Assembly (NCBI RefSeq): GCF_027482425.1
Contig: NZ_JAIXWA010000072.1
Location: 1-64,000, forward strand
Reading direction: 5' to 3'
DNA: 64,000 nt
Source of the DNA: Flavobacterium sp.
Lineage (GTDB): Bacteria > Bacteroidota > Bacteroidia > Flavobacteriales > Flavobacteriaceae
How positions within the stretch are numbered: the stretch's first letter is position 1; the number at the start of each line of letters is the position of its first letter. This document shows, in pieces, positions 1,415 to 14,418 of this stretch. The translations under genes and the position numbers were made by a program. The notes below the pieces were generated by a model. The model was not told the DNA's origin. It saw only the letters and a list, made by a program, of their open reading frames with translations, and ran no database searches.

Positions 1415-2287
1415 ATGGGTTCTTTTGAAGAAATAAAAATTGAAGAAGATTTTTTGTTGATTCGTTTTCAAAATGATGGAACGGAAAATTATCCTGTAAA
1501 ACGTGCTGTTTCACAAGGACTTATTCAGTTTCATTTTGGGTTAAAAGGGAAAGCCAAATTCGTATTCAACGATGGCAATTATGCGTTGGAATTAAAGGAA
1601 GAAAAATCATTATTGTTTTATAATCCTCAGAAAGAATTGCCGATTCAACTAGAAGTTTCGCCCAATACGTGGTTGATTTCGATTTTGATTTCGATCAAAA
1701 AGCTACACAAATTGTTTTCTTCCGACACTGAAAACATTCCGTTTCTGAGTGAGGAAAACATCGATAAGAAATATTATAAAGAACACAATATTAGTCCGTC
1801 GATGGCCATCGTGTTGAGTCAACTGTTTCATTACAATCTCAATCCTTCCATCAAAAATCTCTATTACAAAGGAAAGGGATATGAGTTGCTGAGTTTGTAC
1901 TTTAACCGCTCGGAAGATCCGAATGCCGAACAATGTCCGTTTTTGATTGATGAGGAGAATGTATTAAAAATCCGCAAGGCCAAAGAACTCGTAATTGCTA
2001 ACATGGCCGAACCGCCTGGTTTGCAGGAATTGGCCGATCAAGTGGGGTTGAATTTGAAAAAATTAAAAATGGGGTTCAAACAAATCTACGGCGACACGGT
2101 GTATGGTTTTTTGTTTGATTACAAAATGGATTATGCCCGAAAACTCTTGGATAGCGGTTCGTATAATGTGAATGAAGTGGGACTCAAAGTGGGGTACAGC
2201 ACGGGGAGTCACTTTATTGCGGCGTTTAAGAAAAAATTTGGTACCACGCCCAAAAAATACTTGATGAGTTTACAAGTCAATACCTAA
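1415..2287 (+). CDS. AraC-family transcriptional regulator
   Basis: Predicted DNA-binding regulator of 290 residues. The C-terminal third carries the two helix-turn-helix units of the AraC/XylS family: PPGLQELADQVGLNLKKLKM, then a second unit around NEVGLKVGYSTGSHFIAAFKKKFGTTPKKY, split here only by family convention. The N-terminal part is a sensor or dimerisation domain that I cannot assign to a ligand. The frame can be extended to a TTG at 1376, but the ATG at 1415 (MGSFEEIKIEED) looks like the natural start. It is followed after 51 bases by hemH and faces hemA, so a role in haem or iron homeostasis is a reasonable inference from position only. Confidence 0.85.
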   Translation: MGSFEEIKIEEDFLLIRFQNDGTENYPVKRAVSQGLIQFHFGLKGKAKFVFNDGNYALELKEEKSLLFYNPQKELPIQLEVSPNTWLISILISIKKLHKLFSSDTENIPFLSEENIDKKYYKEHNISPSMAIVLSQLFHYNLNPSIKNLYYKGKGYELLSLYFNRSEDPNAEQCPFLIDEENVLKIRKAKELVIANMAEPPGLQELADQVGLNLKKLKMGFKQIYGDTVYGFLFDYKMDYARKLLDSGSYNVNEVGLKVGYSTGSHFIAAFKKKFGTTPKKYLMSLQVNT

Positions 2288-2338
2288 TGTACAAAATCAA
2301 AAAAGAAGTTATATTAATAAAAAAATAAATTGCTACAA

Positions 2339-3355
2339 ATGAAAGGAGTATTATTAGTCAATCTCGGTTCGCCTGAAAGTCCGACCCCAAAAGATGTAAA
2401 GCCGTATTTGGATGAATTTTTAATGGATAAATACGTTATTGACGTTCCTTATTTATTAAGAGCTTTGTTGGTTCGCGGTATAATTTTGCAAACGCGCCCA
2501 AAAAAATCAGCGGAAGCGTACAGTCAAATTTGGACCAAAGAAGGTTCGCCACTTATTGTAATTTCCAAAAAAATGCACCAAAAGTTGGAAAAACTCGTGG
2601 ATGTACCGGTAGCTTTGGCCATGCGTTATGGCACCATGACCATTCAAAAAGGGTTACAAGAATTAAAAGACAAAGGGGTGACCGACGTGATGTTGTTGGC
2701 CTTATATCCACAATATGCTATGGCTTCTACGACAACGATTTGGGCGTTGGCTGACGAATTGCAACAAAAGCATTTCCCAGAAATGAAGATTACCAAAGTT
2801 CCAGCATTTTACAATAAACCTGATTTTATCCAAGCATTAGCCCATTCAATCAAAAAACATTTGGAAGGTTTTGAATATGATCATTTATTGTTTTCATATC
2901 ATGGTATTCCAAAACGCCATATTCGCAAAACCGATGTGACTAAGTCGCATTGTACCATTGATAACAAATGCTGTGTCACGGCGTCTCCGGCGCATGAATT
3001 TTGCTACCGTCATCAGTGTTTTGAAACGACGCGCCAAGTGGTTGAATTATTGGGTATTCCTGAGGGAAAATACAGCCAAACCTTCCAATCGCGTTTAGCA
3101 GGTGACAAATGGTTAACACCCTATACCGATGTAGAAATCAATAAAATGCCGAAGAAAGGGGTCAAAAAATTGGCCGTAGTTACCCCTGCATTTGTCTCGG
3201 ATTGTTTGGAAACTTTGGAGGAAATCGCCATGCGTGCCAACGAAGAATTTATCGAAAACGATGGGGAGGAATTTTTTGCCGTTCCTTGTTTAAACGATGA
3301 AGACGAATGGTGTCAAGTGGTGGCCAATTGGGTTAATGAATGGAGTAAAAAATAG
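2339..3355 (+). CDS. hemH: Ferrochelatase
   Basis: Inserts Fe2+ into protoporphyrin IX (or coproporphyrin III, depending on the branch used) in the last steps of haem synthesis. Starting at the ATG of MKGVLLVNLGSPESP gives 338 residues, a normal length; the open frame also allows a TTG nine bases earlier. The metal-binding histidine is in SYHGIPKRH (about H188) and the catalytic glutamate in SDCLETLEE near the C terminus. Between these is a cysteine-rich insertion at about 205-227 with spacing C-x5-CC-x9-C-x4-C. Some bacterial ferrochelatases hold a [2Fe-2S] cluster in an internal segment, and this insertion could be such a site (inference). hemJ follows after 86 bases. Confidence 0.96.
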   Translation: MKGVLLVNLGSPESPTPKDVKPYLDEFLMDKYVIDVPYLLRALLVRGIILQTRPKKSAEAYSQIWTKEGSPLIVISKKMHQKLEKLVDVPVALAMRYGTMTIQKGLQELKDKGVTDVMLLALYPQYAMASTTTIWALADELQQKHFPEMKITKVPAFYNKPDFIQALAHSIKKHLEGFEYDHLLFSYHGIPKRHIRKTDVTKSHCTIDNKCCVTASPAHEFCYRHQCFETTRQVVELLGIPEGKYSQTFQSRLAGDKWLTPYTDVEINKMPKKGVKKLAVVTPAFVSDCLETLEEIAMRANEEFIENDGEEFFAVPCLNDEDEWCQVVANWVNEWSKK

Positions 3356-3371
3356 GGGTTTTTTGTTTAAC

Positions 3372-3434
3372 AACTTGAAACCTGACATGAGGCTTTAGCC
3401 GACTGATGTAGCGAAGCGAAATAAACTTGAAACC
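3372..3434 (+). repeat. Short direct repeats in the hemH-hemJ gap
   Basis: AACTTGAAACC occurs at 3372-3382 and again at 3424-3434, just before the hemJ ATG. The first copy reads as two heptamers, AACTTGA and AACCTGA. It is a weak instance of the 7-bp-periodic intergenic repeats also seen at 3981-4036, 9038-9065 and 34273-34333. Confidence 0.5.
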
Positions 3435-3441
3435 AAAATAA

Positions 3442-3987
3442 ATGGATCTCTACAACAACATCAAAGCCTTGCATTTGATTTTTGTGATTACTTGGTTTGC
3501 CGGACTCTTTTACATTGTCCGGTTGTTTGTGTACCAAATTGAAGCGCAAAGTAAACCTTCTCCCGAAAAAGAAATCTTGGGGGCGCAATACAAAATCATG
3601 ACCTATCGCTTGTGGTATATCATCACTTGGCCGAGTGCAGTGTTGGCGACATTATTTGCCCTGACCTTACTTCATTTGAATCCAGAGTGGTTGTACATGC
3701 CTTGGATGCAAGTGAAACTTGGATTTGTAGTGCTTCTTTTGGCGTATCATTTAAAATGCCATCAAATTTACAAGCAGTTGCAAAACGATGACACCCGCTA
3801 TTCTTCCAACTTTATGCGTTTATGGAACGAAGGCGCTACCATTATCCTTTTTGCCGTTGTGTTTTTGGTCATCTTAAAAAATGCCATCGACTGGATTTAC
3901 GGGGTGGTGGGGATTATCGGATTCTCAATACTCATTATGCTCGGCTTCAAATTTTATAAGAATATTAGAAAGAAAAACAATTCATAA
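3442..3987 (+). CDS. hemJ: HemJ-type protoporphyrinogen IX oxidase (CopD/UPF0093 family)
   Basis: Four- to five-helix inner-membrane protein of 181 residues. It oxidises protoporphyrinogen IX to protoporphyrin IX, the substrate of the neighbouring ferrochelatase. The N terminus IKALHLIFVITWFAGLFY carries the histidine (about H11) typical of HemJ, followed by an arginine/tyrosine region and a lysine in the later helix MQVKLGF. Position directly after hemH supports this over a copper-transport (CopD) role. The C-terminal codons (NNS, stop) are already part of a TTCATAA heptamer repeat. The family assignment is strong; the enzymatic role rests on HemJ work in other bacteria. Confidence 0.87.
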   Translation: MDLYNNIKALHLIFVITWFAGLFYIVRLFVYQIEAQSKPSPEKEILGAQYKIMTYRLWYIITWPSAVLATLFALTLLHLNPEWLYMPWMQVKLGFVVLLLAYHLKCHQIYKQLQNDDTRYSSNFMRLWNEGATIILFAVVFLVILKNAIDWIYGVVGIIGFSILIMLGFKFYKNIRKKNNS

Positions 3988-4036
3988 TTCATAATTCATA
4001 ATTCATAATTCATAATTTATAATTTATAATTTATAA
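3981..4036 (+). repeat. Heptamer tandem repeat (TTCATAA)5(TTTATAA)3
   Basis: Eight exact 7-bp units: five TTCATAA, then three TTTATAA. The first unit contains the hemJ stop codon, so the array starts inside the coding sequence and fills most of the gap to the histidine kinase. The same family recurs in gene orientation downstream of plsC at 9038-9065, again overlapping a stop codon. Confidence 0.95.
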
Positions 4037-4066
4037 TTCTACGTGCTGTCAAATTTTAAAATATCC

Positions 4067-5515
4067 ATGCTCTCCCTTCGTATCCGGATTTTCCTGGCGA
4101 TGATTGTATTGATTTTGATTGCATCGATATTAATGGCGTCGATTTCATTGTTTCAGTTCAAAAGTGAAGCGCGAAATTACCATCAAGAGCGTTTGGAGCG
4201 CAAGGAAGATGCGGTTCGGGAGCACATCAATTACATTTTATCCAATACCACTTACCCGTTAACGGAGAAAAATTTACCGTTGATTTTTAAAGATAAAATT
4301 CACGAACTCTCCGATATTCACAGTGTCGAAATTAATATTTACAGTTTAAAAGGAAATTTGTTGAAATCGTCCAAAGCTTCCTTTGCCGTCGATAGCATTT
4401 CGCCTCCCATTCCAAAATACATACTCAAACTCGTTCAATCCTCGATTGAGAAGCGGTATGTCGACATCAAAAATATGGATGGGTTGAAAATTCGTTCTTC
4501 GTTTACCCAAATTAAAGACGATCGGTTTAAACCGCTGGGAATCCTGAATCTTCCCTACGTTGAGGACGACAGTATATACGAGAATGAAATTCAGAATTTC
4601 TTGGTGCGGCTTAGTCAGGTGTATTTTTTCATGCTTATTATTGCCTTTGCCTTGGCGTATTTCCTCTCTTCTTATATTACCCAATCGCTCAAAACGATTT
4701 CCGACAAAATCAATGAAACGAGTTTGAATCAAAAAAATGAAAAAATCATGATTGAAGACAACAGTCGTGAGATTAACTCTTTGATTAAAGCATACAATGC
4801 GATGGTGGATAAACTGGAAGAAAGTGCCTCGATGTTGGCACAATCCGAACGGGAACAAGCCTGGCGCGAAATGGCAAAACAAGTCGCTCATGAAATCAAA
4901 AATCCGTTGACCCCGATGCGCTTAACCGTGCAAAGTTTCCAGCGAAAATTTGATGAAAACGACCCGAATTTACGCCAGAAACTCAATGATTACACCAAAA
5001 CCTTGATTCAGCAAATCGACACGATGACGGCGGTAGCTTCAGCCTTTTCTAACTTTGCCTCGATGCCTGCACAGCAAAATGAAACGCTAAATGTGGTCGA
5101 AGTTGTAGAATTTTCCTTGGATATTTTTAATGAAGATTTCATTGAGTTTCAGTCGGCCGAACCAGAAATCATTACGGTTATGGATCGCACGCAACTCATT
5201 CGTATTATTACAAATTTGGTCAAAAATGCCATCCAAGCCATTCCTGAAATGCAAGAGGAAAAACGCATTCAAGTTAGTGTATACCAAAATTGGGAAGGGG
5301 TGGTTATTTTGGTTAAAGACAACGGGGTTGGAATTGACCCCGATTATCAAGAGCGGATTTTTGAACCGAAATTTACCACCAAAACAAGCGGTATGGGACT
5401 CGGGTTGGGGATCATTAAAAATATTATTGAAAATTACAAAGGAACCATTACTTTTGAGTCCGAATCGCACAAAGGCACTACGTTTAAAGTAACATTACCA
5501 CGCATAAATCCTTAA
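4067..5515 (+). CDS. NtrY-like sensor histidine kinase
   Basis: Membrane sensor kinase of 482 residues. One N-terminal helix (FLAMIVLILIASILMASI) and a second near residues 185-205 enclose a periplasmic sensing domain of about 140 residues. After these come a HAMP-like linker, the phospho-acceptor H-box AHEIKNPLTP (His at about 275), an N-box NLVKNAIQA, G1 DNGVGI and G2 GMGLGLGI. All catalytic boxes look intact. The PLTPM form of the H-box resembles NtrY-type kinases. A GTG eight codons upstream also opens the frame; I prefer the ATG. No response regulator lies beside it, and only 11 bases separate it from a crotonase gene, so the partner and signal are unknown. Confidence 0.9.
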   Translation: MLSLRIRIFLAMIVLILIASILMASISLFQFKSEARNYHQERLERKEDAVREHINYILSNTTYPLTEKNLPLIFKDKIHELSDIHSVEINIYSLKGNLLKSSKASFAVDSISPPIPKYILKLVQSSIEKRYVDIKNMDGLKIRSSFTQIKDDRFKPLGILNLPYVEDDSIYENEIQNFLVRLSQVYFFMLIIAFALAYFLSSYITQSLKTISDKINETSLNQKNEKIMIEDNSREINSLIKAYNAMVDKLEESASMLAQSEREQAWREMAKQVAHEIKNPLTPMRLTVQSFQRKFDENDPNLRQKLNDYTKTLIQQIDTMTAVASAFSNFASMPAQQNETLNVVEVVEFSLDIFNEDFIEFQSAEPEIITVMDRTQLIRIITNLVKNAIQAIPEMQEEKRIQVSVYQNWEGVVILVKDNGVGIDPDYQERIFEPKFTTKTSGMGLGLGIIKNIIENYKGTITFESESHKGTTFKVTLPRINP

Positions 5516-5526
5516 AAAATATACCT

Positions 5527-6309
5527 ATGACATTTGAAAATATTCTCGTAAGCACCGAAGGTCATTTGGCCACCATCACCATCAATCGCCCGAGCAAACT
5601 CAATGCATTGAACAAAGCAACGATTCAAGAATTGCACGATGCTCTAGCGCAATTGGATGCCGAGGAGACTATTAAAGTAATTATATTAACTGGATCCGGT
5701 GAAAAAGCCTTTGTAGCGGGCGCCGACATTTCTGAATTTGCACATTTTTCTATTGAAGAAGGCGCGCAATTGGCCGCTTTAGGACAAGAAATTCTATTTG
5801 ATTTTGTCGAAAACATGAAAACGCCAGTCATTGCAGCAGTCAATGGTTTTGCTTTGGGTGGTGGATTGGAATTGGCCATGTCTTGTCATTTTAGAATTGC
5901 TTCCGACAATGCTAAAATGGGCTTACCCGAAGTGACCTTAGGCGTTATTCCAGGTTATGGAGGTACGCAACGTTTACCACAGTTGGTTGGAAAAGGGCGC
6001 GCCATGGAAATGATTATGACGGCGGGCATGATAGATGCGGAAACCGCCAAAAATTATGGTCTCGTTAACCATGTAGTGCCACAGGCTTCCTTACTCGAGT
6101 TTACCCAAGAAATCGCTGCTAAAATTGCCAAAAATTCGCCCGTAGCCATCAGTTACGCCATCAAAGCGGTCAATGCGGGGTTGATGGATACCAAAGAAGG
6201 GTTCAAAACAGAAATTAAATCGTTTGGAAAATGTTTTGGAACCGAAGATTTTAAAGAGGGCACAACCGCTTTCCTAGAAAAACGGAAAGCCACTTTTCCA
6301 GGAAAATAA
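5527..6309 (+). CDS. Enoyl-CoA hydratase/isomerase (crotonase family)
   Basis: Cytoplasmic enzyme of 260 residues, the normal length for a short-chain enoyl-CoA hydratase, which adds water across the 2,3 double bond of enoyl-CoA in fatty-acid or amino-acid breakdown. Visible family features are the CoA-binding/oxyanion segments AFVAGADISEF and NGFALGGGLELAMSCH. The two glutamates expected in hydratases are in GGGLELA and GLPEVTLGV. Because both are kept, hydratase activity is likelier than an isomerase or decarboxylase. It follows the histidine kinase by 11 bases and is probably cotranscribed with it. The exact substrate cannot be read from sequence. Confidence 0.9.
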   Translation: MTFENILVSTEGHLATITINRPSKLNALNKATIQELHDALAQLDAEETIKVIILTGSGEKAFVAGADISEFAHFSIEEGAQLAALGQEILFDFVENMKTPVIAAVNGFALGGGLELAMSCHFRIASDNAKMGLPEVTLGVIPGYGGTQRLPQLVGKGRAMEMIMTAGMIDAETAKNYGLVNHVVPQASLLEFTQEIAAKIAKNSPVAISYAIKAVNAGLMDTKEGFKTEIKSFGKCFGTEDFKEGTTAFLEKRKATFPGK

Positions 6310-6330
6310 TTAACATATAATTTTACAAAC

Positions 6331-6885
6331 ATGAAAAAAGTATTATTTTTTACATTTATAGTGGCTTTAGGCTGCGGTAAAGGAAAAAGCGAAAATCCTT
6401 TTGAATCTTCATTAAAAGATCACATTATTAAAAGTGCAGATTATCCTAATTCTTATGAGTTTATTTCAGCAACAGTTTCTGATACATTAACTGAAAGTGA
6501 GCTTTCTTCAAATAAACTATTAAAGCTTGAAGCTGAAAATTCTGATTTAAGATTAAAAATCCTTGATAATGAATTAAGTATTCAGGAGAACAATTTAAAA
6601 TCTCATCCCGAGTTATTTAAAGATGTTAATGAAGGTAGACAAAATACAATTAACTCTTTGAAGGCTATTTTAAAAGCTAATTCTTCTGATAGCATTAGGC
6701 TATCCAAAATAACCGATAACAAAAATATTGTTGGATTTATTATTAAACATGAATACAAAATCAAAAACAGAAATGGTGATTTGGAAAAGAAAATTGATTT
6801 CGGATATTTTGATAAAGAAAATAAATTTTTAGGATCATCAAATATGCTTAATTATGAATCTTTTAATTTAGGAAAAAATCGATAA
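6331..6885 (+). CDS. Putative lipoprotein of unknown function
   Basis: 184 residues with a short lipoprotein signal: MKKVLF start, hydrophobic core, lipobox ALGC with the cysteine at about residue 15, then a charged GKGKSE stretch. The middle (about 60-110) is rich in Glu, Leu and Asn and probably helical; the C-terminal part alternates charged and aromatic residues like a small beta domain. I do not recognise the family. The gene is clearly more AT-rich than the crotonase and lipocalin genes on either side, which may mean recent acquisition or weak selection. Confidence 0.7.
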   Translation: MKKVLFFTFIVALGCGKGKSENPFESSLKDHIIKSADYPNSYEFISATVSDTLTESELSSNKLLKLEAENSDLRLKILDNELSIQENNLKSHPELFKDVNEGRQNTINSLKAILKANSSDSIRLSKITDNKNIVGFIIKHEYKIKNRNGDLEKKIDFGYFDKENKFLGSSNMLNYESFNLGKNR

Positions 6886-9037: not shown

Positions 9038-9065
9038 TTATAAATTATGAGTTATGAATTATGAG
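9038..9065 (-). repeat. Second TTCATAA-family heptamer array
   Basis: In gene (minus) orientation the units are CTCATAA, TTCATAA, CTCATAA, TTTATAA. The first unit contains the plsC stop codon and the last lies toward the desaturase start. Family, phase relative to the stop codon and the distal TTTATAA variant all match the array at 3981-4036. Confidence 0.85.
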
Positions 9066-9796
9066 TTTAGGATGGCACTGTTAACGGCTTGTTCTGTTTT
9101 TTCAAACAGTGTAGCAAAGTCATACTCTTTTACTGCCAAGGGTTCGTGAATCGTATATTTAATGTGATTTCCTAAACCCATGGGAAACAAACCAAATTTG
9201 GTCATTTTCCATGAATTGTTGATCGTAATCGGCACAACTACGGCGTTAGGAGCAAACTTGCATAAGATTTTCAAACCATTTTCAGAGAACTTTTTCGTAG
9301 CTCCTGTTTTACTTCGGGTTCCTTCAGGAAAAATAACGGCAGATCGGTGGTGCTTTTCAATATATTCGCTCAACCCTTTGATGGTTGGTAAGGCTTGTTT
9401 AGGGTCTTTGCGGTCAATTAAAATCGAGCCGCCATGGCGTAAATTGTAGGAAACCGAGGGAATGCCTTTTCCGAGTTCCTTTTTACTAACAAACTTAGCA
9501 TGATGCGCGCGCAAGTACCAAATAATTCCAATAATATCAAATAAACTTTGATGGTTGGCCACGAAAATAATGGGAACATTTTGGGGAATTTGTGGTCGGT
9601 TATAAAATGTCCAACGCGTGCCTAAAACTCGGGTGCAACCAATCAATACCCAATTCAAATAATCGACACTTTTTTTATGCGCTTGATACCCAAGAACGTT
9701 AAAACAAATCCACTGTATTGGATGGAAAATCACCAGTGTTAGTCCAAAACAAAGGTAATAGACCACAGAGATGGGATACGAAATCAGTTTTTCCAT
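9059..9796 (-). CDS. 1-acyl-sn-glycerol-3-phosphate acyltransferase (PlsC family)
   Basis: 245 residues. Transfers an acyl group to lysophosphatidate to form phosphatidate at the inner membrane. A hydrophobic N terminus (residues 5-35) anchors it; catalytic motif I is NHQSLFD (H-x4-D, about residue 82), motif III FPEGTRSKTG, with IDRKDPKQA between them. First gene of an operon with the acyl-ACP desaturase (gap 30 bases) and the HD hydrolase. A second, distinct PlsC-like protein is encoded at 13684-14418. Its last two sense codons and stop belong to the heptamer repeat. It is divergent from recA. Confidence 0.92.
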   Translation of the reverse strand: MEKLISYPISVVYYLCFGLTLVIFHPIQWICFNVLGYQAHKKSVDYLNWVLIGCTRVLGTRWTFYNRPQIPQNVPIIFVANHQSLFDIIGIIWYLRAHHAKFVSKKELGKGIPSVSYNLRHGGSILIDRKDPKQALPTIKGLSEYIEKHHRSAVIFPEGTRSKTGATKKFSENGLKILCKFAPNAVVVPITINNSWKMTKFGLFPMGLGNHIKYTIHEPLAVKEYDFATLFEKTEQAVNSAILNS

Positions 9797-9922: not shown

Positions 9923-10927
9923 ATGAGTTCAGAAAAAGAAGCAAAATTGAAAGCGTTACAGCTGACGTTAGACAAGCTGGACAAAACCTACGGTAAAGGT
10001 ACCGTAATGAAGATGGGAGACAAAGCGGTGGAAGAAGTCGAAGTGATTCCATCCGGTTCGTTGGGTTTGGACCTTGCCTTAGGGGTGAATGGGTATCCAA
10101 AGGGTCGTATTATTGAAATCTATGGACCGGAATCTTCGGGTAAAACTACTTTGACCCTCCATGCCATTGCCGAAGCCCAAAAAGCAGGGGGCATTGCAGC
10201 GTTCATTGATGCGGAACATGCGTTTGACCGTCATTACGCGGCCAAATTGGGTGTGGACATTGAAAACTTGATTATTTCACAACCCGATAACGGGGAACAA
10301 GCGTTGGAAATCGCTGAGAACCTAATTCGTTCTGGAGCCATTGACATTGTGGTGATCGACTCGGTAGCTGCCTTAACACCCAAGAGTGAAATCGAAGGAG
10401 AAATGGGCGATTCCAAGATGGGATTACATGCCCGATTGATGTCGCAAGCCTTACGAAAATTGACGGCAACCATCAGCAAAACCCATTGTACCGTATTCTT
10501 CATCAACCAGTTGCGCGAAAAAATCGGAGTGATGTTTGGAAATCCCGAAACGACTACGGGTGGTAATGCGTTGAAGTTTTATGCTTCGGTACGTCTAGAC
10601 ATCCGTCGTTCGTCGCAAATTAAAGATGGAGAAAATGTGTTGGGGAACCGCACCAAAGTAAAAGTGGTAAAAAACAAAGTAGCTCCCCCGTTCAAAACCG
10701 CTGAGTTTGACATTATGTATGGCGAGGGCGTCTCCAAAACGGGAGAAATCCTTGATTTAGCCGTCGAGTTTGAAATCATCAAAAAATCAGGCTCATGGTT
10801 TAGTTACGGTGACACTAAGTTGGGACAAGGTCGCGATGCGGTGAAATTGTTGATTAAAGACAATCCCGAATTAGCTGAGGAATTGGAACAAAAAATCAAA
10901 GACCTCATAAAAGAGCAAGCCGATTAA
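9923..10927 (+). CDS. recA: Recombinase A
   Basis: 334 residues, full length. ATP-dependent strand-exchange protein of homologous recombination and, in other bacteria, co-protease of the SOS response. Walker [10 protein letters not shown] at residues 68-76, Walker B around [12 protein letters not shown], and the L2 DNA-binding loop region [22 protein letters not shown] are all intact. The C terminus ([16 protein letters not shown]) is charged as in other RecA proteins. No intein is present. A rho-independent terminator follows after 13 bases. Confidence 0.98.
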
Positions 10928-10940
10928 TTTGGCACTTAAG

Positions 10941-10970
10941 TCCCGGTTTGAAAAAATCGGGATTTTTTTT
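10941..10970 (+). terminator. recA intrinsic terminator
   Basis: TCCCG and CGGGA stem followed by eight T, located 13 bases after the recA stop. Confidence 0.85.
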
Positions 10971-11023
10971 GAACTTCACGCAACCTTTTTAACATCAGTG
11001 CATCCTAATAAAAAATAATATCC

Positions 11024-11437
11024 ATGATTAAAAAAATTCTGTTAACCGTAGTATTCCTTGTTGGACTTGTGTTTACCGGTTGCGACCTTTCCGAAGATGA
11101 ACCCATCTACATTCAGGTTTCAGCCATTACAGAAGTAACCAATCCGAACCAATATGCCAAAGACAGCATCACGGAAATTCCAGTGAAATTTAAGTTGCCT
11201 AGTCAATGTCATGTTTTCCGTAAATTTTACTATGAATCCCATGATTTTGACCGAGTCGTTGCTATTGAAAGTCTAAAAAGCGGCAACAATACGTGTCCCA
11301 TAGATGAAGAATTGTACACGGCTACATTACGATTTAGACCGACCACTTTGGGTACCTATCATTTTAAATTTTGGTTGGGCGAAGATGCACAAGGGGTAGA
11401 TCAATATGTAGAATTTGATGCTGTAGTAGATCATTAA
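11024..11437 (+). CDS. Putative lipoprotein of unknown function
   Basis: 137 residues. Signal peptide MIKKILLTVVFLVGLVFTGC with lipobox FTGC, then an acidic SEDEP tether and a beta-rich domain (IQVSAITEVTNPNQY, later TLRFRPTTLGTYHFKFWLG) resembling a single immunoglobulin-like or carbohydrate-binding sandwich. Two cysteines (LPSQCHVF and NNTCPID) may pair. I do not recognise a named family. It ends 11 bases before the ECF sigma gene and may be the first gene of that unit. Confidence 0.7.
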   Translation: MIKKILLTVVFLVGLVFTGCDLSEDEPIYIQVSAITEVTNPNQYAKDSITEIPVKFKLPSQCHVFRKFYYESHDFDRVVAIESLKSGNNTCPIDEELYTATLRFRPTTLGTYHFKFWLGEDAQGVDQYVEFDAVVDH

Positions 11438-11448
11438 AATGAAGCTGG

Positions 11449-11991
11449 TTGGATTTAGAACAAATCATACAAGGATGTCAAAAAAAAGACATTCAAGCGC
11501 AAGAACAATTATACCGGCAGTATGCGGGTAAAATGTTTGCGGTTTGTTTGAAGTATGTTCCCAATCGTGATGAGGCCCAAGACTATTTTCAAGAAGGGTT
11601 TTTATTGGTCTTTGACAAAATTGTGCAGTACGAATTTAAAGGTTCCTTTGACGGATGGTTGCATCGGGTTTTTGTAAACTATTTGTTGCAACAATTTCGA
11701 AAAAAAAACTACTTAAATGTGGTGGATGAAAATATCCCCGACGAAGTCGAAGTCGAAATTGATGAAGGTATCCCGCCCGAGTTTTTATTTCGTATCGTGC
11801 AAGAACTCCCCGAACGCTATCGACTGGTTTTTAACCTGTATGTGTTTGAAGAGTACAGTCACCAAGAAATTGCTGACGCGCTCGGAATTACGGTTGGCAC
11901 TTCCAAATCCAATTTATCCCGAGCAAAATTAATTTTAAAACAAAAAATCGAACTCCATACCGGAAGTTCAAAAATGCCCAAACTACAATGA
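11449..11991 (+). CDS. ECF-type RNA polymerase sigma factor, TTG start
   Basis: 180 residues. Directs RNA polymerase to a regulon set by its partner. Sigma region 2 spans about 10-90 (EQLYRQYAGKMFAVCLKYV, DYFQEGFLLVFDKI, GWLHRVFVNYLL); region 4, about 110-165, has the helix-turn-helix YSHQEIADALGITVGTSKS followed by NLSRAK. In-frame upstream codons reach a TGA at 11440-11442 and no ATG or GTG precedes the conserved N terminus, so TTG at 11449 is the likely start. The stop overlaps the next ATG by four bases (ATGA), indicating translational coupling with the two-membrane regulator at 11988. Confidence 0.92.
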   Translation: MDLEQIIQGCQKKDIQAQEQLYRQYAGKMFAVCLKYVPNRDEAQDYFQEGFLLVFDKIVQYEFKGSFDGWLHRVFVNYLLQQFRKKNYLNVVDENIPDEVEVEIDEGIPPEFLFRIVQELPERYRLVFNLYVFEEYSHQEIADALGITVGTSKSNLSRAKLILKQKIELHTGSSKMPKLQ

Positions 11992-13499
11992 AACATCCAC
12001 ACGAATTCAAAAAGCGATTTCAAGAGTCCCTCGAGGACTTCGAGGTGCAGCCCGACGAAGCGTTGTGGTTGAACATCAAAGATAAACTGCAGGAGAAAAA
12101 GAAACGACGCGTTATTCCCATCTGGTGGTTTTATTGCGGTATCGCAGCTGCCTTTTTAGTCGGGCTCTTTATCCGTGTCCCGTTTTGGGAAACCGTAACA
12201 CCCAGTTCTCGCGAAACGAACCCAGTCGTTGTAAACGACCCCGGAAAAGCGAACTCCTCTTCACCTTCTGTTACCAATGGAAAAAATTCGATGGAAGGTT
12301 CAGAAGATCAGGAAGCTGTTACAACCTTACCCAATAAAGCAACTAGTGTACCTTCTTCTCCCGTAGTGACTACTTCCGCTCAAGTGAAAAACAAGTTGAG
12401 TAATGGGAACACTGAGGTCGCTTTTTCTTCAAAAAAAGAACGAAAAAACAAGGGTTATGTAGTACAAGCGAAAAACTCGTTGGTAGCTCATCAAGCCGCT
12501 GTGGGTAATGGCAATTCTAATCAACCGGTCAACAACAACAGTACTGTTATCCCTGAAGAGCAACAACTTCCTCAAGCGGTTCCCACTTCTGGATCTGAAC
12601 GTTTGGCTGTGAATGCTGAGAATACATTGCATTCCGATACAACTAATCCCGTGACCAATGCTGTCACACCCTCACCCATCGTTTCCAATACCCCTTTACA
12701 TACGGCCATAGACAGCACTGCTGTGGCCGAAAAATCTAAAAATGCGTTGGAAGAATTGCTACATGAAAAAGAAAAGAAAACCTTTTCCGAACCGAAATTA
12801 AATAGGTGGCTAGTTGGCACACAGCTCGCCCCTATTTACTTCAGTTCGTTGTCGCAAGGCTCTCCTTTAGATCCCTCCTTAACGGAAAATGAAAAGCGTT
12901 ACACCGCAGAGAATTTCAGTTATGGATTGGGTGTTGGTTATGCGTTAAACGATAAACTCACCCTACGATCGGGAGTCAACATGGTTCGTTTGGGCTATGA
13001 AACCGATGGTATTATGTATTATATGCGTCCTGAAGTTAGCAGTCGCATTCAAAACATATCATTAAATGCAGTAGGCTCCAACATTGTTATTGAAAGTCTC
13101 AACAACGTTCGCCCCTACAACCGAATGACAGAAATGTTTGAAGGATCGATTGTGCAACGTACCGGTTATTTGGAAATTCCTCTAGAATTGGCGTACCAAT
13201 TTGGATCCAAAAAATGGGGATTACAAGTGTTGGGCGGTATGAGTACGTTTGTGCTCAATCAAAATGAAGTCTATTTGCAATCCAATACATTGAATCTCCT
13301 TATTGGAGAGGCGACCAACCTCAACCCGGTTCATTTTAGTGGAAACCTGGGCTTGGGCATGCATTATCGCTTTTTCAAAAATTGGCAAGCAAGGGTAGAA
13401 CCCACTTTCAAATACCAATTTAATCCCTATCGAAGTGATGCAGGAAATTTCAGACCCTACCTCATGGGATTGTATACGGGAGTGGTGTATACGTTTTAA
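11988..13499 (+). CDS. Predicted dual-membrane-spanning anti-sigma protein (cytoplasmic head, one TM, linker, outer-membrane barrel)
   Basis: 503 residues. Order seen: charged cytoplasmic head (1-42, PDEALWLNIKDKLQEKKKRR); one inner-membrane helix (about 44-62); a Ser/Thr/Asn/Pro-rich low-complexity stretch to about 265; then a domain of alternating strands (LVGTQLAPIYFSS, YGLGVGYALNDKLTLRSGV, GNLGLGMHYRFF) ending in VVYTF with the terminal Phe typical of outer-membrane barrels. Its start overlaps the ECF sigma gene by four bases. This architecture matches the dual membrane-spanning anti-sigma factors (Dma) reported in Bacteroides; that role here is inference from layout and operon. A simple porin is unlikely because a non-cleavable helix and basic cytoplasmic head precede the barrel. 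Confidence 0.75.
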   Translation: MKHPHEFKKRFQESLEDFEVQPDEALWLNIKDKLQEKKKRRVIPIWWFYCGIAAAFLVGLFIRVPFWETVTPSSRETNPVVVNDPGKANSSSPSVTNGKNSMEGSEDQEAVTTLPNKATSVPSSPVVTTSAQVKNKLSNGNTEVAFSSKKERKNKGYVVQAKNSLVAHQAAVGNGNSNQPVNNNSTVIPEEQQLPQAVPTSGSERLAVNAENTLHSDTTNPVTNAVTPSPIVSNTPLHTAIDSTAVAEKSKNALEELLHEKEKKTFSEPKLNRWLVGTQLAPIYFSSLSQGSPLDPSLTENEKRYTAENFSYGLGVGYALNDKLTLRSGVNMVRLGYETDGIMYYMRPEVSSRIQNISLNAVGSNIVIESLNNVRPYNRMTEMFEGSIVQRTGYLEIPLELAYQFGSKKWGLQVLGGMSTFVLNQNEVYLQSNTLNLLIGEATNLNPVHFSGNLGLGMHYRFFKNWQARVEPTFKYQFNPYRSDAGNFRPYLMGLYTGVVYTF

Positions 13500-13552: not shown

Positions 13553-13582
13553 AAAAGAGTGTCTCGGCCGGACACTCTTTTT
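13553..13582. terminator. Intrinsic terminator of the sigma/anti-sigma unit
   Basis: AAAAGAGTGTC and GACACTCTTTT make an 11-bp stem with a 7-base loop, flanked by A- and T-runs, so it could act for both strands. Confidence 0.85.
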
Positions 13583-13590
13583 GTCTGCGT

Positions 13591-13684
13591 TAAGGATTGC
13601 AGTGAAAATCCCGGTGCCGGAGTTTACGGAGGTGCCGGATTGCAACGGAAAGCCTGACCCCGGAAGTATGGAGGGGGAACGCCC
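13591..13684 (+). repeat. GC-rich intergenic repeat, copy A
   Basis: Two related cores, GGATTGCAGTGAAAATCCCG and, 44 bases further, GGATTGCAACGGAAAGCCTG, followed by GGGGGAACGCCC, which ends on the stop codon of the minus-strand acyltransferase. It is far more GC-rich than other gaps. Related elements, on the opposite strand, lie at 26754-26880 and 44835-44968. Confidence 0.65.
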
Positions 13685-14418
13685 TAATTAATTTCTTGCA
13701 AATCCGTTAAAATAATTTGTCTTGCCTGATCTTTGAGCTCCTTTTTAGCCTCCAAAAGCAACCCTTGTGTTTCTATAAATGGATGTATTTTTACCCGCAT
13801 TCTTCCTGGGCTACCACTTAGAAACGTATAGGAAAAACGTTCCTTATTATCAAAGAAGGTCATAGGAACAATTGGAATTTGGTGTTCAATAGCCAATCGG
13901 AAAGCGCCGTCTTTAAATTCGTCCAACAACACCCTTTCGTCAGGGACGCCTCCTTCGGGGAAAATACAGATACTCAATCCCATTTGTAAGCGTCTTTGGG
14001 CGCGAAGGTATACTTGATGCCGGCTTTTGGGATTGCCACGATCGACCAGAATACTAGTGCGTTTGTAAAAAAACCCAAACAAAGGAATCTTTGCCAACTC
14101 TTTTTTGCCGACAAAAACAAAAGGGTTGCGAACCGTAGCCAACATCAACATAATATCAGTCATCGAGGTATGGTTGGCAATAAACATATAGCTCTTTCCG
14201 GGTTCAGGCTCTTGCAAGGCTGTAACTTTGTATTGAAATCCCATGCCGAAAAGTATGCATTTGGCCCAAATTCGTGCCAACCTAAAAAAATAAGGATACC
14301 AACGTTCTTTTAAAATGGAGACCACTAAAAACGGGAATAATACCAAAATGGGTACCGCTACTACGATGTAAAACCAAATCCGATAAAGGGTCCAAAAAAT
14401 TATTTTAAACGCACGCAT
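13684..14418 (-). CDS. PlsC-family acyltransferase (second copy)
   Basis: 244 residues, 1-acylglycerol-3-phosphate acyltransferase type. Two hydrophobic N-terminal segments (about 5-35) give membrane anchoring. Catalytic motif NHTSMTD (H-x4-D) is at about residue 82; FPEGGVPDER replaces the usual FPEGTRS, so motif III is divergent. Against the copy at 9059 it shares the motifs but little else, arguing for a different acyl donor or acceptor, for example lysophospholipids or an ornithine-lipid step (speculative). Single gene divergent from trpS; its stop touches GC-rich repeat copy A. Confidence 0.87.
   Translation of the reverse strand: MRAFKIIFWTLYRIWFYIVVAVPILVLFPFLVVSILKERWYPYFFRLARIWAKCILFGMGFQYKVTALQEPEPGKSYMFIANHTSMTDIMLMLATVRNPFVFVGKKELAKIPLFGFFYKRTSILVDRGNPKSRHQVYLRAQRRLQMGLSICIFPEGGVPDERVLLDEFKDGAFRLAIEHQIPIVPMTFFDNKERFSYTFLSGSPGRMRVKIHPFIETQGLLLEAKKELKDQARQIILTDLQEIN

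Follow-up and report, generated by a model that had tools for sequence, protein, structure and literature searches.

The anti-sigma factors closest to the one considered here are the Dma/Reo proteins, which have been studied in gut Bacteroides and Phocaeicola (PMC9308784, PMC13114119, PMC13088901). One report describes Dma proteins as carrying domains all the way from outer membrane to cytosol and places the family across Bacteroidota (PMC13088901). In the EcfO-Reo system of Phocaeicola vulgatus and Bacteroides fragilis, the regulon includes NigD lipoproteins, outer-membrane stress is the proposed trigger, and loss of Reo in P. vulgatus activates the regulon (PMC9308784, PMC13114119). For Bacteroides thetaiotaomicron, it is reported that the dma2 phenotype depends on das2 and that Dma2 does not raise nigD1, so that NigD marks the Dma1/Reo subfamily and not all Dma proteins (PMC13088901). 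Another member of the family in that species, Dma3, is described as having a sigma domain built into its N-terminal end (PMC13088901), whereas the locus considered here has a separate sigma gene.

The window, a 64,000-nucleotide stretch of Flavobacterium sp. DNA, contains a locus of this kind, on which no paper was listed in the open-licence literature searched. As in EcfO-Reo (PMC9308784, PMC13114119), an ECF sigma factor is followed by an anti-sigma factor that is predicted to start in the cytoplasm, cross the periplasm and end in a C-terminal barrel. The likeness extends to the Dma1/Das1 and Dma2/Das2 pairs of B. thetaiotaomicron, which are described as sharing an anti-sigma head, one transmembrane helix, a disordered tether, a C-terminal barrel and a gene that adjoins an ECF sigma gene, Dma2 also lying in a three-gene operon (PMC13088901). 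Unlike EcfO-Reo with its NigD link, the locus belongs to a genome with no NigD_N match, its operon is headed by a different small lipoprotein, and it lies beside recA. In RpoE-RseA and CnrH-CnrY a membrane protein likewise holds an ECF sigma factor by a short domain in the cytoplasm, but its sensing part ends in the periplasm and is not known to include a barrel. In signalling of the FecA-FecR-FecI type, an outer-membrane barrel, an anti-sigma factor and an ECF sigma factor act in series, the barrel (a TonB transporter) and the anti-sigma factor being separate proteins, whereas here an eight-strand barrel is predicted to be fused to a putative anti-sigma factor. A cognate sigma factor of the ECF21 group and control of outer-membrane vesicle output also count among the traits by which the Dma/Reo family is recognised. 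The Dma/Reo kind itself is already known; what is new is the operon, its predicted ECF-type promoter and a testable predicted regulon, and the conserved, recA-linked version in Flavobacteriaceae extends the kind to other species. The three genes very probably make up a Dma/Reo-type operon that senses the envelope and regulates itself, working through the mechanism proposed below.

Judged from sequence, the lipoprotein, the sigma factor and the 503-residue protein are encoded in one operon that is conserved among relatives (Table 1). The first-pass annotation had the sigma gene overlapping the gene for the 503-residue protein by four bases, and the exact coordinates of both give that overlap at 11988-11991. 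The 180-residue protein matches Sigma70_r2 and r4_2 of Pfam, and its TTG start is supported because the sigma proteins of many relatives have Met at the aligned position. The genome, of 2.59 Mb, holds 13 Sigma70_r2 matches, 12 of them above cut-off. Two genes on the minus strand (9059-9796 and 13684-14418), related to each other by their cross-matches and presumably acyltransferase-like, bracket the block of recA and operon.

Table 1. Features of the recA-linked operon and predicted segments of the 503-residue protein, in window positions
Feature	Position	Strand	Basis or remark
recA (presumed; named from its sequence)	9923-10927	upstream of operon	neighbours' copies 89.8-95.8% identical
Likely rho-independent terminator of recA	10941-10970	+	read by eye; separates recA from operon
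Predicted ECF-type promoter	10978-11007	+	motif proper 10978-11004, 19 nt before lipoprotein ATG
Small lipoprotein, 137 aa, first gene of operon	11024-11437	+	FTGC lipobox, acidic residues after Cys
ECF sigma factor, 180 aa	11449-11991	+	TTG start 11449, TGA 11991; Pfam
Putative Dma/Reo-type anti-sigma factor, 503 aa	11988-13499	+	ATG 11988, TAA 13499
Residues 1-42, two-helix head, putative anti-sigma domain in the cytoplasm	11988-12113	+	P22-x4-W27-xx-I30
Residues 45-63, predicted inner-membrane helix	12120-12176	+	AF2; hydropathy
Residues 64-250, predicted low-complexity periplasmic linker	12177-12737	+	pLDDT<50; length varies among homologs
Residues 274-503, predicted eight-strand outer-membrane barrel, terminal Phe	12807-13496	+	AF2, Foldseek, hhalign
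Likely rho-independent terminator of operon	13557-13583	+	read by eye

The 503-residue protein exceeds the cut-offs of PF13505 (E 3.2e-8) and PF13568 (E 1.9e-7), families that 11 and 8 of 19 homologs, respectively, match at E<=0.01. An AF2 model built from 19 alignment rows places N-terminal helices at residues 4-19 and 24-35 ahead of the membrane helix (45-63), gives pLDDT below 50 over residues 59-251, and ends in an eight-strand barrel where pLDDT averaged over blocks of ten residues is 68-97; the first four such blocks of the chain stand at 65, 65, 72 and 59, and the mean for the whole chain is just 64 because of the disordered linker. Hydropathy peaks at 1.97 at residue 42, the second-highest peak being 0.74, and among 79 homologs an N-terminal transmembrane segment was found by the same measure in 77 and a second segment in none. 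The linker is rich in S, V, N, T, P and A, with 8% F/W/Y/I/L/M/C, and varies in length in an alignment in which head and barrel are conserved. P22, W27 and I30 of the head are invariant in 19 homologs, and all 79 homologs carry the head motif P-x(3-5)-[WF]-xx-[IL] and terminate in Phe. Foldseek returned an OmpA barrel as the best match of the predicted barrel (9fzc_A, E 9.7e-9, TM(target) 0.71). Searches with the head and with the whole protein turned up no solved structure that could credibly count as a relative (best E 0.052 and 0.31). By prediction, then, a single transmembrane helix, a long disordered tether of about 200 low-complexity residues and a C-terminal barrel ending in Phe are all present, in agreement with what the first-pass annotation had read from the 503-residue chain. 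The helix is probably a stable anchor, as had also been proposed, and not a cleavable signal peptide, since a conserved head of 44 residues, ending in KKKRR and a few further residues, precedes it. Of the "basic cytoplasmic head" in that annotation, the basic patch stands (KKKRR at 37-41, before the helix), whereas overall basicity does not, residues 1-41 holding 11 K/R and 9 D/E when counted by eye.

In eight loci the sigma gene and the next gene lie in frame with a TAA between them, and reading this TAA as Gly yields a single chain. The predicted structure of one such read-through chain (L094, 56 rows) has a mean pLDDT of 88 and a pTM of 0.79; its head reaches pLDDT 92-95 over residues 9-38, about 66 over 1-8 and about 76 over 39-48, against 59-72 for the head of the window protein modelled alone, figures that are not cleanly comparable as both protein and alignment differ. 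For this chain, Foldseek put sigma chains from the AlgU-MucA, SigW-RsiW and SigmaE-RseA complexes in the first six places and CnrH-CnrY in place 22; its other matches were sigma factors within polymerase complexes. The model hints that residues 1-42 might contact the sigma factor, but it is of an ortholog with the two parts covalently linked, and both this linkage and the depth of the sigma rows could bias it toward contact.

Relatives of the 503-residue protein were sought at E<=1e-6 in 40 genomes, the own genome included, and were found in 18, namely 16 of the 25 from the genus and 2 of the 15 from other families of the order; the remaining 22, with 9 of the 25 in the same genus, gave no match at that threshold. 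In 18 further loci that were read, the sigma gene adjoins the barrel gene in every case, a lipoprotein homolog is present in 11 (lying downstream in one of them, L037) and recA in 10. A wider scan, run with a closer, less diverse subset of sequences and covering all bacterial and archaeal phyla, confirmed at least 508 relatives, the best 80 of which served for neighbour counts; that set is biased toward close, fused relatives because it holds the best matches only. It is mostly Flavobacteriaceae by title, 78 entries being Bacteroidota-titled, has its closest relatives at 84% (L052, Flavobacterium sp. LE19-388.1A) and 85% (L078), and overlaps the 18-locus set, with G013/L063 and G021/L075 in common. 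Two records titled Rhizobium and Bifidobacterium (L066 and L075) also carry the locus and are probably mislabelled metagenome bins. The pair of ECF sigma factor and barrel, which the first-pass annotation had proposed to seek in other flavobacteria, is adjacent in 79 of the best 80 of 508 (exception L089) as well as in the 18 of 18. Within the best 80, recA is nearby in 79, the exception (L070) being a record with little upstream DNA, and the four-nucleotide overlap recurs in 41 of the 79 sigma-barrel pairs. The 79 homologs were obtained with a fused query, so that their layout was partly selected for; sigma adjacency was not.

A lipoprotein homolog lies upstream of the sigma gene in 76 of the best 80 of 508 loci (misses L085, L089, L098 and L125), and the lipoprotein, for which the first-pass annotation had suggested a part in the system, is therefore assigned to it. 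C20, C62 and C91 are invariant across 13 lipoprotein sequences. In Pfam and NCBIfam nothing scored above cut-off for the protein, and among solved structures no match was better than E 0.3. A surface-export signal was considered for it (P0003) and rejected: acidic residues follow the Cys, but the SDDFE consensus is absent.

The relation to the described systems was approached through NigD. NigD_N matched 2 of 38 genomes tested (G389 and G397) and had 0 matches in the own genome, one of the 38, so that the 503-residue protein is probably not a Dma1 ortholog. In G397 a head-profile match lies about 1 kb from NigD, and in G389 NigD led to a locus (L370), though the head profile gave no match in that genome. 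Among four NigD loci read, L369 and L370 combine a sigma factor, an anti-sigma-like protein of 409-425 residues, as against 503 here, and a divergent nigD, and L371 and L372 are without this arrangement; the genomes are presumably Bacteroidales, to judge from NigD. The nigD of L369 matches NF051862, NigD1/NigD2, and L369 and L370 were taken as Dma1/Reo orthologs from synteny alone. In single comparisons with the NigD-linked locus, the head aligns with the anti-sigma head (hhalign prob 93.7, E 1.8e-7, a match selected for because the head profile had found L369), the barrel with the barrel (prob 96.0, E 3.9e-9) and the sigma factor with the sigma factor (35% identity, E 1e-39). Membership of the 503-residue protein in the Dma/Reo anti-sigma family is supported by the adjoining sigma gene and the predicted helix, tether and barrel behind a putative anti-sigma head, with these resemblances as a possible further sign, and the earlier suggestion of a flavobacterial member of the Dma kind is likewise supported.

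The predicted promoter of the window consists of a -35-like ACGCAACC, a 15-nt spacer after GCAACC and a -10-like CATCCTA. GCAACC-N15-NATC occurs within 750 nt upstream of the sigma gene in 78 of 79 operons (63 CATC, 13 TATC and 2 AATC), the one miss, L104, having a spacer of 14. By comparison, neither the opposite strand nor the initial 750 nt of the barrel gene holds it in any of the 79 (0/79 each), and it turns up in 3/1580 mononucleotide shuffles; a narrower motif was counted in 73 of 80 loci. Autoregulation of the operon from this putative promoter is likely. The SM6 motif of F. psychrophilum was set aside, as it has a CGT -10 box and so is probably the motif of another sigma factor. The own genome has one copy of the motif in its strict form, at this operon, and looser matches lie inside ORFs. 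With one mismatch allowed, the count was 78 sites and that of the reversed control 48, which makes most of the 78 attributable to chance; 48 of them were read. One of the one-mismatch copies lies 141 nt before a SusC/SusD pair (G000:C31; L299 1546-1572, genes 1714-6385), identified by Pfam as TonB-plug and SusD, and scores 19.4 bits versus 30.0 for the operon site and 12.0 for the next best of the 48 read. At 11 SusC sites elsewhere the motif stands 132-143 nt before the start. The pair is the best candidate for a second target among the own-genome sites read.

Across 150 Flavobacterium genomes, the strict motif ACGCAACC-nTT-N12-YATC was found at 258 sites, versus 14 for the reversed pattern used as control (summed by hand), and was present in 95 of the genomes. 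The 120 loci fetched represent 126 of the 258 sites, and family counts in this sample are not frequencies because recurrent sites were chosen first. An ORF of 60 or more residues begins within 220 nt at 103 of the 126 sites and is absent at 23. Lipoproteins account for 79 of these 103 first genes against 21 of 697 flanking genes (operon lipoproteins removed), under a lipoprotein rule of the authors' own that was loosened after missed cases and applied alike to both sets; an earlier, stricter lipobox rule gave 68 of 126 sites versus 99 of 774 ORFs, operon lipoproteins included. A sigma-plus-head operon follows 34 of the 126 sites, and after removal of these, lipoproteins make up 46 of 69. The regulon lipoproteins (60/79) show no clear excess over the background ones (13/21) in acidic residues after the Cys. 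When one member per group was scanned, DUF4136, PrcB_C and TonB-plug proteins were among the families, and one group was without a family. The motif sites could serve several ECF factors, and the predicted targets in other Flavobacterium would be mainly envelope lipoproteins. The promoter pattern narrows the question of what such proteins control to a short list of testable genes.

The head also occurs apart from the barrel. Of 296 genomes sampled from the phylum, 82 gave a match to a head profile (A7), and among loci found with this profile a sigma gene adjoins in 19 of 20, the miss being L352. The own genome itself carries a split paralog (G000:C24; L002 948-1508, 1495-2208 and 2243-3292), in which an ECF sigma gene is followed by adjoining genes for a head plus helix of about 237 residues with no barrel and for a separate protein of 349 residues; the latter has a signal-like start and no Pfam match and is perhaps an outer-membrane protein. 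Similar splits exist in L354, L355, L361, L367 and L368, where the separate gene passes the PF13568 cut-off in L354 and L355, one gene of L361 matches below the cut-off, and L367 and L368 give no match. Because split versions exist, the module in itself can do without a covalent link, and the paralog of the own genome offers a natural comparison on whether a covalent tether matters.

In the mechanism proposed for the operon, the two-helix cytoplasmic head of the 503-residue protein would hold the ECF sigma factor at the inner membrane, as homology and the model suggest, and the same chain is predicted to cross the inner membrane once, continue as a disordered periplasmic tether and end in a small barrel anchored in the outer membrane. 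A disturbance at the barrel or in barrel assembly, possibly involving the lipoprotein of the operon, would release the sigma factor, which may then direct transcription from ACGCAACC-N15-CATCT promoters, here those of its own operon and of one SusC/SusD pair, and in other Flavobacterium, on the evidence of the promoter pattern, mainly those of envelope lipoproteins. From this arrangement we infer that the sigma factor is bound, that the chain spans the envelope intact in the cell and that the outer membrane signals directly.

That the chain is instead cleaved in its linker, so that head-plus-helix and barrel act separately and the covalent span does not last, is unlikely, even with a paralog in the same genome and the five other split loci showing head-plus-helix and a separate protein encoded as adjacent genes behind an ECF sigma factor; fused proteins with conserved barrels are common, though the loci came from a fused query, and the Dma report speaks of domains that span from outer membrane to cytosol (PMC13088901). 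An M50 protease is present in the own genome and also in 14 of 14 control genomes, and is therefore uninformative. Some FecR-like proteins have pro-sigma activity, and the translational coupling and constant pairing seen here would be compatible with either sign of regulation. A head that is required for sigma activity, and not purely inhibitory, is nevertheless quite improbable given that loss of Reo in P. vulgatus activates the regulon (PMC9308784, PMC13114119) and the dma2 phenotype in B. thetaiotaomicron depends on das2 (PMC13088901). Least credible, to the point of being nearly dismissible, is the reading in which the protein is simply a secreted barrel with an unusual N terminus and its sigma neighbour is incidental: Pfam gives a generic OMP barrel domain only, but a conserved head precedes the helix, and a sigma gene adjoins in 79 of the best 80 of 508 loci, in 18 of 18 further loci and in 19 of 20 head-profile loci, plus the split locus of the own genome.

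If the envelope-sensing operon of the Dma/Reo kind is taken as the preferred reading, a broader and distinctly tentative proposal may be attached to it, which is more doubtful than probable. The Flavobacterium modules would run a regulon for outer-membrane lipoprotein homeostasis through ACGCAACC-N15-CATCT promoters, and a recA slot without the operon would keep such promoters before a candidate small RNA and a gene for a 34-residue basic peptide, the whole being functionally equivalent to sigmaE and its small-RNA arm, with one tethered protein as the connection to the outer membrane. Of 21 loci examined, 17 (L187-L192, L214, L215, L244, L256, L261, L276, L280, L373-L375 and L377) have motif sites in a gap; recA was seen upstream in 11 of the 17, the others beginning too close, and nine have two motif sites. 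A conserved ORF for the basic 34-residue peptide follows downstream in 15 of the 17, and in the six gap loci read fully the operon is missing and an acyltransferase-like gene comes next. These gaps also hold a conserved stretch, about 120 nt long, which ends in a terminator, has two-sided changes at 3 of 13 pairs among 16 sequences, and is a candidate small RNA, for which Rfam returned no family in the four loci searched.

Two further loci combine the module with other domains. In L357 (936-3623) and L359 (1391-3706), Pfam places a TonB receptor plug and a VWA domain behind the same anti-sigma-like head, beside an ECF sigma factor, and L359 additionally carries a type IX secretion tail.
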